From Veillonella caviae (GTDB taxonomy: Bacteria > Bacillota > Negativicutes > Veillonellales > Veillonellaceae), in assembly GCF_003992125.1 (NCBI RefSeq), contig NZ_RQUY01000011.1, forward strand, positions 1 to 64,000: a DNA stretch of 64,000 bases. Direction: 5' to 3'. A model generated the notes under the pieces. The model had not been told where the DNA came from and ran no database searches. It saw only the letters and a list, made by a program, of their open reading frames with translations. Below, piece after piece: positions 3,007 through 8,038 of this stretch (position 1 is its first letter; each line of letters begins with the position of its first letter). A program made the translations under genes and the position numbers.

Positions 3007-3081
3007 TAATACATAGTAATTGATAGTAATTTTCATTTAAATGAAGATTATTTCATATAGGTTGGTATATGGAGGTCACAT

Positions 3082-3963
3082 ATGAAAGGTATTATTATTG
3101 CATCTTTTGGATCCATTTATAAAGAAGCTGTTAATACGTCTATTGGCGTAATAGAATCTAAAGTACGCACATTGTATAGTAATATGGAAGTGCGCCGCGT
3201 ATTTTTGTCCGATGCATTGGTGGATAAATGGAATGATAAATATGATGAGCATATTTCTTCTTTTACAGAAGTCATGCAAGAGTTTAATCGCATGGGTATT
3301 GATGAAGTGTACATTCAACCGATTACATTAGTGGCGGATCAATGTTATCAACAAATGCGTAAACAAGCACTTAAATTTTTACACAGCAGTGAGTATGGCT
3401 TCACTCAAATTAGCATTGGTAAACCACTGTTAACATCTCTTGGTATTAAAAATTATGCTGATGATTACGAGGCAACCTTAGATGGTATTTTACGCCATGT
3501 AAATACGAAAGCGTTGAATAAATCCATCATCTTAATGGCGAATGGTCAAAATCAATTGGAGTTTTCCACATTGCAATTAAAAGCTATGTATGGAGCTGCA
3601 CCGAATGTAGCGGTATTTACTACTAATGGATTTCCTACGTTTAAACAAGCTCTTACCTTAGTAGACCGAATGGGGCACCAAGATGTGTTAGTTGTACCAT
3701 TGGCATTGATTGGTTCTGCTCATTTGATGGATTATCTAGGCGGTGAACGATCTGATTCTATTTACGCATTACTTGCCGAAGAAGGTTATAATGTAGATAT
3801 TTGGAATGAAGGCCTCGGTGAAAACCCATATGTGCAAGACTTATTCTTGAAACACTTAGGTCAAGCAGTGCGCATGTCTGATCGCAAACGTAATTCACGA
3901 GCTGAATCAGTACAGCCAATGATGACATCTTCTCGTATGGAAGTTCAAAGTATGATTTCCTAA
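3082..3963 (+). CDS. CbiK-like protein with degenerate metal site
   Basis: A 293-residue protein of the CbiK (class II sirohydrochlorin cobaltochelatase) family: it opens MKGIIIASFGS and ends with the family's GLGENPYVQDLF block. CbiK enzymes bind the metal with a His, a Glu and a second His. Here the first position, normally in a GHG motif, reads ANG (Asn154), and the Glu position reads Thr (about 180). Only the second His (SAH, His214) remains. The gene next door keeps all three. It starts behind GGAGG at 3082 with its own promoter. It may be an inactive or repurposed paralogue (metal carrier, regulatory partner or a different tetrapyrrole substrate); plain cobaltochelatase activity is doubtful. 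Confidence 0.7.
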   Translation: MKGIIIASFGSIYKEAVNTSIGVIESKVRTLYSNMEVRRVFLSDALVDKWNDKYDEHISSFTEVMQEFNRMGIDEVYIQPITLVADQCYQQMRKQALKFLHSSEYGFTQISIGKPLLTSLGIKNYADDYEATLDGILRHVNTKALNKSIILMANGQNQLEFSTLQLKAMYGAAPNVAVFTTNGFPTFKQALTLVDRMGHQDVLVVPLALIGSAHLMDYLGGERSDSIYALLAEEGYNVDIWNEGLGENPYVQDLFLKHLGQAVRMSDRKRNSRAESVQPMMTSSRMEVQSMIS

Positions 3964-4043
3964 TTTATATAGAATACTGTCATAGCTCATGTATGACGGA
4001 TAATATCTTGCTCATATCTACACATTTTCATAACTCTCCTTGT

Positions 4044-4073
4044 GAAACATCCGCTCTTCGGGGCGGATGTTTC
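4044..4073 (+). terminator. Perfect 11-bp hairpin between the two cbiK genes
   Basis: GAAACATCCGC at 4044-4054 pairs exactly with 4063-4073 around an 8-nt loop. It lacks a U-tract, so it may be a weak or Rho-assisted terminator or an mRNA stabiliser rather than a standard intrinsic terminator. The remainder of the 3964-4252 interval holds only a possible promoter (TATAAT at 4159-4164). Confidence 0.45.
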
Positions 4074-4252
4074 GTCACGTATAGATTGGAGTTGTATCAC
4101 TAAAGAAAGCTGAAATAATCATAAGTGAAATTAAGATTTATAGTCTATGAAAAATTGTTATAATAGCTTTTATCATACGTGGGGTGGTATCCTCATCGAT
4201 GTATGACTATGGTATGATGAGTATTAGATTGATTTATCATAAGGAGATATAT

Positions 4253-5107
4253 ATGAAACAAGCTATTTTAGTTGTTGCTTTTGGTTCCACTGTGGACACG
4301 GCTCGGGAATATCATATTGATACAGTGGTATCGCGTATTGCTGAGAAATTCCCTGATTACGAAGTGCGATTAGCATTTTCATCCCGCATTATCGTGAAAA
4401 GATTGCGTGACCGTGGTATCCATATTCTTACAGAGCAAGGTGCATTGGAATCTCTTATCGCTGAAGGATATACGCACGTTTATGTACAACCATTACATTT
4501 TACTGGTGGTGAAGAATTTGATAAATTAAAACGAAATATTCTCGCTCATGAAGGGGAAGGTCAATTACAAGTACTTCGTGTAGGTCGACCATTGGTATAT
4601 TACATAGGGCAAGAGGAACATCCCAATGATTACCAAATTCTCATCGATAAATTTATAAAACCATTAAACATTTCTAAAGATGATGGATTGTTGTTTGTCG
4701 GCCATGGTGGTTTGAGCTCTGGCAATTCTAGCTATGGTTATTTGCAATATCAATTGATTCGTAACGGTCTAGGTCATGTTCGTGTAGCTACCTTGGAAAA
4801 TGCACCCTATGTAGAGGATGTAGCTTTGCCATGGGAATGGATGGATGGTAAACGGCCTAATAAGATTTATGTACATCCATTGTTACTCGTATTGGGAGAC
4901 CATGCGCAGAATGACTTGTTCGGTGATGAGGAGGACAGTGTTATTAATGTACTTCAAGATGGTGGTTATGATGTAGAGGCTATGCATCAAGCACTTGGTG
5001 AGTATACTTCTATACAAGATATTTTCTGTCAACATGTACAAGATTGTATTGATGATATATATGGCAAACGCAGTCATCATCGTCCTGAGATTCCTACTGT
5101 GAAATAA
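4253..5107 (+). CDS. cbiK: Sirohydrochlorin cobaltochelatase, CbiK type
   Basis: A 284-residue chelatase that inserts Co(II) into sirohydrochlorin early in the anaerobic cobalamin pathway. It begins MKQAILVVAFGS. Expected metal ligands are visible: His151 in VGHGG, Glu182 in ATLENAP and His217 in LGDHAQNDL, with the acidic GGEEFDK segment near residue 86. It is a diverged tandem paralogue of the upstream gene, which lacks the first two ligands. ATG 4253 follows AAGGAG at good spacing, whereas an upstream GTG in the same frame (4184) has no such site. The next gene, cbiL, acts on the cobalt-containing product, consistent with this copy being the working enzyme. No signal peptide is seen, so it is cytoplasmic, unlike the periplasmic CbiK of Desulfovibrio. 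Confidence 0.85.
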   Translation: MKQAILVVAFGSTVDTAREYHIDTVVSRIAEKFPDYEVRLAFSSRIIVKRLRDRGIHILTEQGALESLIAEGYTHVYVQPLHFTGGEEFDKLKRNILAHEGEGQLQVLRVGRPLVYYIGQEEHPNDYQILIDKFIKPLNISKDDGLLFVGHGGLSSGNSSYGYLQYQLIRNGLGHVRVATLENAPYVEDVALPWEWMDGKRPNKIYVHPLLLVLGDHAQNDLFGDEEDSVINVLQDGGYDVEAMHQALGEYTSIQDIFCQHVQDCIDDIYGKRSHHRPEIPTVK

Positions 5108-5285: not shown

Positions 5286-5993
5286 ATGAAAGGTAAATTA
5301 TATGGCATTGGCGTAGGCCCTGGGGATCCAGAATTAATGACTGTGAAAGCTGCACGTATTGTGGGCGAAGCAGATATTATTATTACCCCTAAAACTGAAA
5401 AAAAAGATGGTTCTGTAGCATTGGATATTGCGAAACCATATATTCAAGAGCATACAGAAATTGTACCTGTTGTATTCCCAATGGTTCTCAATGAAGAAAC
5501 ACAAGCAGAAGGTTGGAAAGAAGCGCAACAAATTATCGTATCCTATTTGGAGCAAGGTAAAAATGTTGTATTTCTTACCTTAGGGGATCCAATGTTTTAC
5601 AGTACATACATGTATGTGTACCGCCTTATTGAAAATACAGGGTATGAAATTGAAACAATTCCGGGCATCACTGCATTCTGTGCTATTGGCTCTCATCTTG
5701 GTTATCCAATTGTAGAAAAAGAGGAAGTATTGGCTATTGTACCTGCTACGGCACCAAAGGAAAAAATCGATGCTGTTCTCGCTGTAGCTGATGATGCGGT
5801 TATCATGAAAGTATATAAAAACTTTGATGAAGTGCAAGAAACATTGGTAAAACATGATATGGCTGATGATGCAGTAATGATTAGCCGTGTAGGTTTGCCT
5901 GATGAGCAAGTATTTGTAGGCCTTGATAATATGCCGAAAGATACAAAATTAAACTATTTATCTACTATCTTAGCAAAACGCAAGGATCGCTAA
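5286..5993 (+). CDS. cbiL: Cobalt-factor II C20-methyltransferase (CbiL/CobI)
   Basis: A 235-residue SAM-dependent tetrapyrrole methylase that transfers a methyl group to C-20 of the corrin precursor. The family's N-terminal glycine-rich stretch GIGVGPGDPELMTVKA is present (residues 6-21), then the second SAM-binding motif TLGDPMFYSTYMY and the GITAFCAIGSHLGYP segment typical of CbiL/CobI. The length matches the family. ATG 5286 follows AGGAG with six bases between, so the longer frame from 5172 is rejected. It lies after the cobaltochelatases with its own promoter. The other corrin-ring genes (cbiC, D, E, F, G, H, J, T) are not in the window and must be elsewhere if the pathway is complete. 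Confidence 0.88.
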   Translation: MKGKLYGIGVGPGDPELMTVKAARIVGEADIIITPKTEKKDGSVALDIAKPYIQEHTEIVPVVFPMVLNEETQAEGWKEAQQIIVSYLEQGKNVVFLTLGDPMFYSTYMYVYRLIENTGYEIETIPGITAFCAIGSHLGYPIVEKEEVLAIVPATAPKEKIDAVLAVADDAVIMKVYKNFDEVQETLVKHDMADDAVMISRVGLPDEQVFVGLDNMPKDTKLNYLSTILAKRKDR

Positions 5994-6080: not shown

Positions 6081-7460
6081 ATGAAAACTGTACCCATTCC
6101 ACGGGTTGTTATTGCTGGTACAAATTCCGGCGTAGGTAAAACTACTATCGTTGCGGGGTTACTCGCAGCGTATCATGCTAGTGGTCATGGGGTGCAATCC
6201 TTTAAAGTGGGCCCGGATTATATTGATCCGGGCTTTCATAAAATTGCATCCGGCCGTGATAGTTATAATTTAGATACCTGGCTAGTACCACCTAGTAAAA
6301 TGCCAAATTTCTTTGCTTCTATGGCACATGACGCAGATCTTGCTATTATTGAAGGCGTGATGGGACTCTATGATGGCGGTCGCGAAGGCGTGAGCAGTAC
6401 AGCACAGATTGCGAAACAATTGGGAGCCCCAGTGATTCTTGTCATTGATTGTAAGGCTATGGGTGAAAGTGCCGCTGCTATTGCTCTTGGTTTCCGTGAT
6501 TATGATAAGGACGTCGATTTTAGAGGGGTTATACTTAATCGCCTTGGTTCTGATAATCATGAACGAATGGTGCGTGATGGGATGGCAAAAATTGGGATTC
6601 CTGTATTAGGTGCTATTCGTCGTGATGATCGCATGCATTCTCCTGAACGCCATCTGGGGTTGACACCTGTTACAGAAATTGATCCTACTGAGGCTATTGC
6701 TACTATTCGCGGTGCTGTAGAAAAAATGGTTGATTTAGATGCTCTTTATGAAGTGGTTGTCAGTGCAGAACCTATGGCTATTTATAATGACACAACTCAT
6801 GCAGGTGAAAGTAAACGAGCTAAAATTGGTGTTGCTTATGATGAGGCGTTTTCCTTTTACTATCCAGCCAGCCTTGCTGCGTTAGAAGCGGAGGGGGCAG
6901 AACTCGTTTATTTTAGTCCTTTACAAGACAAGTCTATACCTGATGTAGATGGTCTCGTATTTGGTGGTGGTTTTCCAGAAATGTTCTTAGAACAGCTGTC
7001 AGCTAACATTTCCATGAAAGAATCCATTGTAAATGCAAACAAACGACATATGCCGATTTACGCGGAGTGTGGGGGCCTCATGTATTTGTGTGAACAAATC
7101 CACGATTTTGAAGGCTGTGCGTATGATACGGTTGGAGTTGTTCCTGCTAATTGCATTATGCAGCAAAGCTTACAAAAGGTAGGCTATGTAACGGCGGTAG
7201 CAAAACGAGATACCTTACTGGGTCCTGTGAATACATCTTTACGAGGTCATGAATTCCATTTTTCCACTATGGAGCCAACTATTGAGGCGTTCCCGTGGGC
7301 ATTCCATTTAGAAGGGGGCCGCAAACCACAATCCTATGATGGTGGTTACGCTACCGATAATGTTTTGGCGTCCTATTTACACCTAAATTTTGCAGGATCT
7401 CAAGAAGGGGCACGCCATTTCGTGGACCGCTGTGAAGTATATAAAAACGGACAAAAATAA
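6081..7460 (+). CDS. cbiA: Cobyrinate a,c-diamide synthase
   Basis: A 459-residue two-domain enzyme that amidates the a and c carboxylates of cobyrinate using ATP and glutamine. The N-terminal synthetase domain has the P-loop GTNSGVGKTT (about 13-22) and the GVMGLYDGG segment. The C-terminal class I glutamine amidotransferase domain starts near residue 245 (KIGVAYDEAFSFYY) and carries the nucleophilic Cys in YAECGGLMYL. Length and order match CbiA/CobB. It is followed after 35 bases by the corrinoid adenosyltransferase gene, so the two late steps, diamide formation and cobalt adenosylation, are probably co-transcribed. Confidence 0.92.
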   Translation: MKTVPIPRVVIAGTNSGVGKTTIVAGLLAAYHASGHGVQSFKVGPDYIDPGFHKIASGRDSYNLDTWLVPPSKMPNFFASMAHDADLAIIEGVMGLYDGGREGVSSTAQIAKQLGAPVILVIDCKAMGESAAAIALGFRDYDKDVDFRGVILNRLGSDNHERMVRDGMAKIGIPVLGAIRRDDRMHSPERHLGLTPVTEIDPTEAIATIRGAVEKMVDLDALYEVVVSAEPMAIYNDTTHAGESKRAKIGVAYDEAFSFYYPASLAALEAEGAELVYFSPLQDKSIPDVDGLVFGGGFPEMFLEQLSANISMKESIVNANKRHMPIYAECGGLMYLCEQIHDFEGCAYDTVGVVPANCIMQQSLQKVGYVTAVAKRDTLLGPVNTSLRGHEFHFSTMEPTIEAFPWAFHLEGGRKPQSYDGGYATDNVLASYLHLNFAGSQEGARHFVDRCEVYKNGQK

Positions 7461-7495: not shown

Positions 7496-8038
7496 ATGAG
7501 TGAACGTGGATTAATTCTTGTAAATACTGGTAATGGTAAAGGTAAAACCACAGCAGCCCTCGGTGTTGTTTTACGTGCTGTTGGACAAGGATTAAAGGTT
7601 TTGATTCTACAATTTATCAAAAGTGGCAATGGCTATGGCGAATTAGAAGGCTTAAAACGTTTAGGCGATGCAGTAACCATAAAATCTATGGGGAAAGGCT
7701 TTATCTACTATAAACGGGATGAAGTAAGCCCAGAAGAACTAAAAAAACACAAAACCGCTGCTCAAGAAGCGTGGCAAACCCTAGTGGACGAAGTTAACTC
7801 CGACAAATGGGACCTCATCGTCATGGACGAAATCAACAACGCCATCAATTACAATCTTATCTCCGTCGACGAAGTAGTTCATATGCTTCGGAATAAACCA
7901 AAACGATTACACCTCATCCTTACAGGGCGTTATGCTAAACCAGAAATCATCGACTTAGCCGACACCGTTACCGAAATGAATGTAGTAAAACACGCTTACC
8001 AGAACGGTATTAAGGCGGCAAAAGGAATTGAGTTTTAA
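7496..8038 (+). CDS. cobO: Cob(I)yrinic acid a,c-diamide adenosyltransferase
   Basis: A 180-residue CobA/CobO/BtuR-family ATP:corrinoid adenosyltransferase, which attaches the 5'-deoxyadenosyl group to reduced cobalt. The unusual P-loop TGNGKGKTTAA lies at residues 11-21. WDLIVMDEINNAI is the acidic Walker-B-like segment, and LTGR plus the A-D-T-V-T-E-M motif near the C-terminus are family hallmarks. The Arg/Lys-rich N-terminal extension of some CobA proteins is absent. ATG 7496 follows GAGGGGAG; an upstream TTG at 7469 lacks a good site. It pairs functionally with cbiA upstream. The gene closes the cobalamin cluster, and 277 non-coding bases with an inverted-repeat element follow. Confidence 0.9.
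   Translation: MSERGLILVNTGNGKGKTTAALGVVLRAVGQGLKVLILQFIKSGNGYGELEGLKRLGDAVTIKSMGKGFIYYKRDEVSPEELKKHKTAAQEAWQTLVDEVNSDKWDLIVMDEINNAINYNLISVDEVVHMLRNKPKRLHLILTGRYAKPEIIDLADTVTEMNVVKHAYQNGIKAAKGIEF

Follow-up and report, generated by a model that had tools for sequence, protein, structure and literature searches.

Among the known relatives of the genes analysed here are class II chelatases. It has been reported that class II sirohydrochlorin chelatases employ a His pair placed within one domain or half of the protein (PMC7689651), and that in the related chelatase Pp-CbiX the exchange for alanine of either His equivalent to H145 or H207 of CbiK abolishes chelatase activity in vivo (PMC4063343). 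The Glu ligand is not conserved in all class II chelatases (PMC11301274); therefore, of the ligand replacements described below, only that of His by Asn is strongly diagnostic.

The window, i.e. the whole 64,000-nucleotide stretch of Veillonella caviae DNA that was analysed, contains two adjacent CbiK-family genes, here called A and B, which are followed by cbiL, cbiA and cobA. We call CbiK-family genes with Asn in place of the first catalytic His N-type genes. The genes of the locus are:

3082 to 3963, + strand: A, N-type CbiK paralogue, 293 aa, with Asn154, Asn182 and His214 (PF06180, E = 3.7e-42)
4253 to 5107, + strand: B, canonical CbiK-type sirohydrochlorin cobaltochelatase, 284 aa, with His151, Glu182 and His217 (PF06180, E = 3.9e-64)
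5286 to 5993, + strand: cbiL, cobalt-factor II / precorrin-2 C20-methyltransferase (TIGR01467, above cutoff)
6081 to 7460, + strand: cbiA/cobB, cobyrinic acid a,c-diamide synthase (NF002204, above cutoff)
7496 to 8038, + strand: cobA, cob(I)yrinic acid a,c-diamide adenosyltransferase (NF004637 and TIGR00708, above cutoff)

A matches PF06180 over the full length of the profile (144.9 bits against a cutoff of 26.2), with residues 2-263 aligned to profile positions 1-261 of 262. Both A and B match CbiK, CbiKP and FetB, and the relatives of A with solved structures are 1qgo, 2xvx and 9b86. With the NCBIfam CbiK equivalog NF047852, A and B score 101 and 154 bits, both below the cutoff of 400, so that this cutoff does not separate the two. 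The A proteins of V. tobetsuensis, V. atypica and V. parvula are 84-86% identical to that of the window. The codons in A that distinguish it from an ordinary CbiK, together with that of the retained His, are:

3337 to 3339, + strand: Asp86, replacing a near-invariant Gly (CbiK Gly87); Asp in every N-type gene
3541 to 3543, + strand: Asn154 (AAT), replacing the first catalytic His
3559 to 3561, + strand: Glu160, after a three-residue deletion; invariant in N-type genes and unconserved in ordinary CbiK
3625 to 3627, + strand: Asn182 (AAT), replacing the metal-ligand Glu
3721 to 3723, + strand: His214 (CAT), the retained His equivalent to CbiK His207

In the alignment with known structures, Asn154 of A falls on H145 of Salmonella CbiK and H154 of Desulfovibrio CbiKP, Asn182 on E175 and E184 of the same two proteins, and His214 on H207 of Salmonella CbiK. 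The initial annotation had described two neighbouring CbiK-family genes, of which the second keeps His151, Glu182 and His217 and the first has Asn154 for the first His while keeping His214. The profile matches, the numbering of B from the ATG at 4253 and the alignment bear this out. The Thr that it placed at about residue 180 in the Glu column of A needs correction, because the residue in that column is Asn182, with T180 and T181 lying two and one residues earlier. The catalytic His pair in the C-terminal half (His145/His207) is consequently absent from A, and Asn occupies the first position in 32 of 32 N-type sequences, while each of the 27 distinct A sequences from Veillonellaceae has N182 in place of the Glu175 ligand. 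A shift of the His pair into the N-terminal part, the arrangement of CbiX-L and SirB, was considered and rejected because the alignment shows no conserved His in the N-terminal half of A; thus, an aligned His pair is found in neither half. By descent A is a CbiK, while as an enzyme it departs from the family at the catalytic residues that define it.

The predicted structure of A retains the complete CbiK fold. The AlphaFold (AF2) model has a pLDDT of 94.4 and a pTM of 0.89, and structure comparison (VIA) returned CbiK, CbiKP and FetB at Z 31-32, with CbiKP and CbiK superposed over 253-257 residues at 1.8 Å. The structural glycines and prolines and the His207 equivalent are kept. The pocket, in contrast, has been rewritten: A differs in every one of the columns conserved among 111 ordinary homologs (Salmonella numbering: G87, E89, H145, E175, G205, D206, N210 and D211), and the loop equivalent to that of CbiK Glu89 reads ADQCY. 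Following a three-residue deletion, the whole N-type clade has Asp86, Asn154, Gln158 and Glu160 as fixed residues, and D86, Q158 and E160 are not invariant in ordinary CbiK. No signal peptide or lipoprotein signal was found in A, whose N-terminus (MKGIIIASFG) starts straight in the first strand (residues 2-8 in the model), and profile search revealed no DNA-binding or other additional domain.

These replacements are a property of the whole family. A was found in 28 of 28 Veillonellaceae genomes searched, covering four genera, each of which carries exactly three CbiK paralogues, and every A ortholog reads Asn/Asn/His. None of these orthologs departs from the motifs LMANGQNQLE and VFT(T/S/A)NGFP or lacks the last His. 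In an independent profile alignment of 139 sequences, the three positions read NNH in 27, NEH in 3, NDH in 2 and HEH in 107; that is, NNH in 27/27 distinct Veillonellaceae A sequences versus HEH in 107/107 CbiK homologs outside the N-type clade, a separation far beyond chance. The labels HSH and HTH of two sequences are alignment slips beside a retained Glu-Glu. Against six Veillonella relatives, dN was 0.09-0.15 for A and 0.13-0.17 for B, lower for A in five of the six comparisons; dN is the safer measure here, as synonymous sites are near saturation in the A/B comparison, from which cbiL was left out. A is under purifying selection. The loss of active-site residues on its own might suggest a decaying pseudogene or a strain-specific degenerate copy, but the gene is intact and strongly conserved in 28 genomes, with dN mostly under that of B, so that this explanation is already refuted and we give it practically no weight.

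To place A within the family, profiles of A were used to search 300 genomes from its class and 398 from its phylum. At least five further genes with the His-to-Asn change were found in four other families of the class; the weaker matches of the class search were read only in part, and further N-type genes may exist. The second position of these five is Glu in three and Asp in two. Among the best-scoring matches of the 398-genome phylum sample, none outside the class was recognised as N-type. In a tree built without the ligand columns 154 and 182, all N-type genes fall on one side of a 100/100 branch and 62 others on the opposite side, with the Veillonellaceae set (NNH) nested among NEH sequences. 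A therefore belongs to an ancient, separate and fully supported clade and is not a degenerate copy of B; a recent duplication of B was rejected as its origin, because A and B lie on opposing sides of this branch. The NEH and NDH genes of other families and the nested position of NNH indicate that the His was lost first and the Glu later. Occurrence is patchy outside Veillonellaceae (1/12 and 1/10 genomes in two families), which suggests losses or horizontal transfer. In one of these loci (L092 12578-15054), the N-type frame begins late and the neighbouring cobN is fragmented, suggesting decay of the locus. Separately, L158 712-2415 holds two CbiK domains fused in a single open frame, and similar long frames were listed in other genomes of the phylum.

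The comparison of the His-to-Asn change across Veillonellaceae, which the initial annotation had proposed, thus found it family-wide and disposes of the idea that it occurs only in this isolate. Its description of a CbiK with a lost metal site holds as far as the replaced ligands go, but is incomplete, since A represents an ancient separate clade whose pocket has been rewritten and fixed anew. Its view that A is kept for a use other than ordinary cobaltochelation gains support from the fixation throughout the family, the low dN and the conserved pocket motif.

A and B are adjacent in most Veillonellaceae genomes. In relatives, the upstream continuation of the locus comprises a third, apparently secreted CbiK paralogue (C) and btuF on the opposite strand, followed by btuCD and cbi genes; in the genome of the window, the part with C, btuF and btuCD is on another contig, beside a two-partner secretion system. 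Paralogue C (L058 11013-12017 on contig 3 of G000, also in L044-L047) has a signal-like N-terminus and HEH residues, adjoins a btuF/isdE-like lipoprotein gene and is preceded by a cobalamin riboswitch in four relatives. In one genus (g3), A and B are found on separate contigs; A there has unrelated neighbours and lies away from the cobalamin genes, which makes an obligate link with B less likely.

Outside Veillonellaceae, the N-type gene is located behind mutAB-meaB in two families and has cobN nearby; cobalamin riboswitches as well as mutAB-meaB, btuF, cobN and cbiZ occur around the N-type genes of other families. Both settings suggest a role in cobalamin metabolism, although only through guilt by association, because ordinary CbiK genes also adjoin cobN and cbiZ in those other-family genomes. 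An obligate pairing of A with CobN was rejected, given that CobN is missing from the window genome and the tested g1, g2 and g4 genomes and that ordinary CbiK adjoins CobN too. In L090 and L093, a cobalamin riboswitch lies ahead of mutA, an arrangement that is unexpected before genes of the B12-dependent methylmalonyl-CoA mutase if B12 switches them off. In addition, L090, L092 and L093 hold cobalamin-riboswitch loci with nitrogenase-like NifH/NifD-type proteins, CobN, CbiZ and TonB receptors.

The signals around the two genes are:

3071 to 3076, + strand: ribosome-binding site of A, ggaggt (direct reading; a similar motif precedes A in relatives)
4042 to 4079, + strand: terminator-like hairpin between A and B, probably separating two transcripts (4030-4095: -28.9 kcal/mol, z = -5.52)
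4241 to 4246: ribosome-binding site of B, aaggag (direct reading)

A hairpin is also present in the A-B gap of most relatives, which makes separate transcription plausible. The initial annotation had given A its own promoter and ribosome-binding site; the latter is visible, while promoter-like matches number 15 against 14.8 expected and are thus at the level of chance. No cobalamin riboswitch reached the gathering score before A or B in the window or in the Veillonella relatives scanned. Upstream of B, a GGTATG repeat element (TATGGTATGAT, window 4180-4240) is seen again in Veillonella species; it might act as a promoter or operator. Upstream of A, positions 1791-2881 of the window hold a broken transposase relic in three open frames, with HTH_38 in the first piece and a weak integrase-core match in the last. 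In two genera, a conserved protein of 104-105 aa is encoded directly upstream of A (L049 5377-5691, L045 5179-5496, L052 5342-5656); it weakly matches the N-terminal domain of DnaA (E = 0.011) and was not found in the loci of the window's own genus. Upstream of the locus in L041, a ZMP/ZTP riboswitch (1973-2054) lies just ahead of an apparent transporter gene.

We propose that A is an ancient, re-tasked CbiK paralogue that keeps, in its predicted structure, the fold of a class II chelatase and the cleft, while its metal-entry ligands were replaced, the His by Asn first and, in Veillonellaceae, the Glu by Asn later. The loss of Pp-CbiX activity on His-to-Ala exchange, taken together with the rule of a His pair within one half, indicates that A probably no longer inserts cobalt into sirohydrochlorin. 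That the pocket is strongly constrained and the last His retained suggests that A still binds a ring; this would be a tetrapyrrole of the cobalamin pathway or a corrinoid, held through His214 and the rebuilt pocket. A would then serve as a holder, carrier or accessory protein, and B as the cobalt inserter. That A is a non-inserting tetrapyrrole- or corrinoid-binding protein of B12 metabolism seems to us an even call. For the clade as a whole, we tentatively suggest, at slightly under even chances, an undescribed class of CbiK-fold proteins with the pocket Asp86/Asn154/Gln158/Glu160/His214, which would carry or act on a ring of the cobalamin pathway with no ordinary insertion of cobalt, and which is fixed in Veillonellaceae and patchy in other families beside methylmalonyl-CoA mutase, CobN and cobalamin-riboswitch genes.

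The conservation of the rebuilt pocket is compatible as well with a chelatase that acts on a different metal or ring. Asp86 and Glu160 might form, with His214 and Asn154, a different metal or proton-shuttle site, so that A would handle another metal or another ring or remove a metal. The invariance of D86, Q158 and E160 in all N-type genes, set against their variability in ordinary CbiK, favors such a relocated site, and there are precedents in HemH, a class II chelatase with one His swapped for Glu (PMC7689651), and in HmuS, a CobN homologue that strips iron from haem (PMC12583661), given that N-type genes elsewhere are near cobN. The tested g1, g2 and g4 genomes have no CobN, however, and the cobN link is non-specific, ordinary CbiK being found beside cobN in the same families; we regard this as unlikely, though a serious contender. 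The adjacency of A and B in most genomes could instead reflect a heteromer, with A in a non-catalytic role beside B that is regulatory or structural, or a function of A as a tetrapyrrole sensor by which cobalt insertion is tuned. The separate contigs and unrelated neighbours in g3, the hairpin that suggests separate transcription units and the lack of a DNA-binding or extra domain in A all speak against this, and we consider it quite improbable.

A could also be an ordinary sirohydrochlorin cobaltochelatase or ferrochelatase that tolerates the substitutions, for example a missing sirohaem chelatase, since NIR_SIR-family proteins and one resembling precorrin-2 dehydrogenase are present in the tested genomes, in which no separate SirB/CbiX gene was found. 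But the ferrochelatase could be that dehydrogenase-like protein, by analogy with CysG and Met8. Moreover, both first-shell ligands besides the last His are replaced in A, and the equivalent single exchange kills Pp-CbiX in vivo (PMC4063343), which leaves this explanation very improbable.

Among open-licence papers, no title or abstract on CbiK in Veillonella or on CbiK paralogues describes A. Annotation and predictions of B12 prototrophy likely count N-type genes as cobaltochelatases, even though the clade lacks a catalytic His. Should A carry or modify a tetrapyrrole, it would be an example of how the fold of class II chelatases is re-used, and the anaerobic B12 metabolism of common mouth and gut bacteria would gain a component that has gone unrecognised. 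The series from NEH to NNH across families provides natural intermediates for testing which residues matter.

Among known systems, the best structural match of A is CbiKP, the periplasmic cobaltochelatase of Desulfovibrio vulgaris (2xvx-2xvz; Z 32.4 to 2xvz). However, CbiKP has the HEH ligand set, while A has neither a signal peptide nor two of the three ligands; paralogue C, with its signal-like N-terminus and HEH residues, is closer to CbiKP in location. With Salmonella CbiK (1qgo/2xwp), A shares the fold (Z 31.5 and rmsd 1.8 over 253 residues), the GLGENP C-terminal block and the His207 equivalent; it differs, among other positions, at H145 (N in A), E175 (N), E89 (C/T) and G87 (D). HemH/CpfC ferrochelatase has the class II fold as A does, at Z about 17 and about 10% identity; where HemH carries Glu in place of one catalytic His (PMC7689651), A has Asn, and the genome encodes a HemH of its own. 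Porphyromonas gingivalis FetB (9b86, Z 31.1 to A), which is named as haem-binding in the PDB, sits on a different branch of the tree and, unlike A, keeps all three ligand residues; with its CbiK fold, it is a precedent for the re-tasking of this fold.
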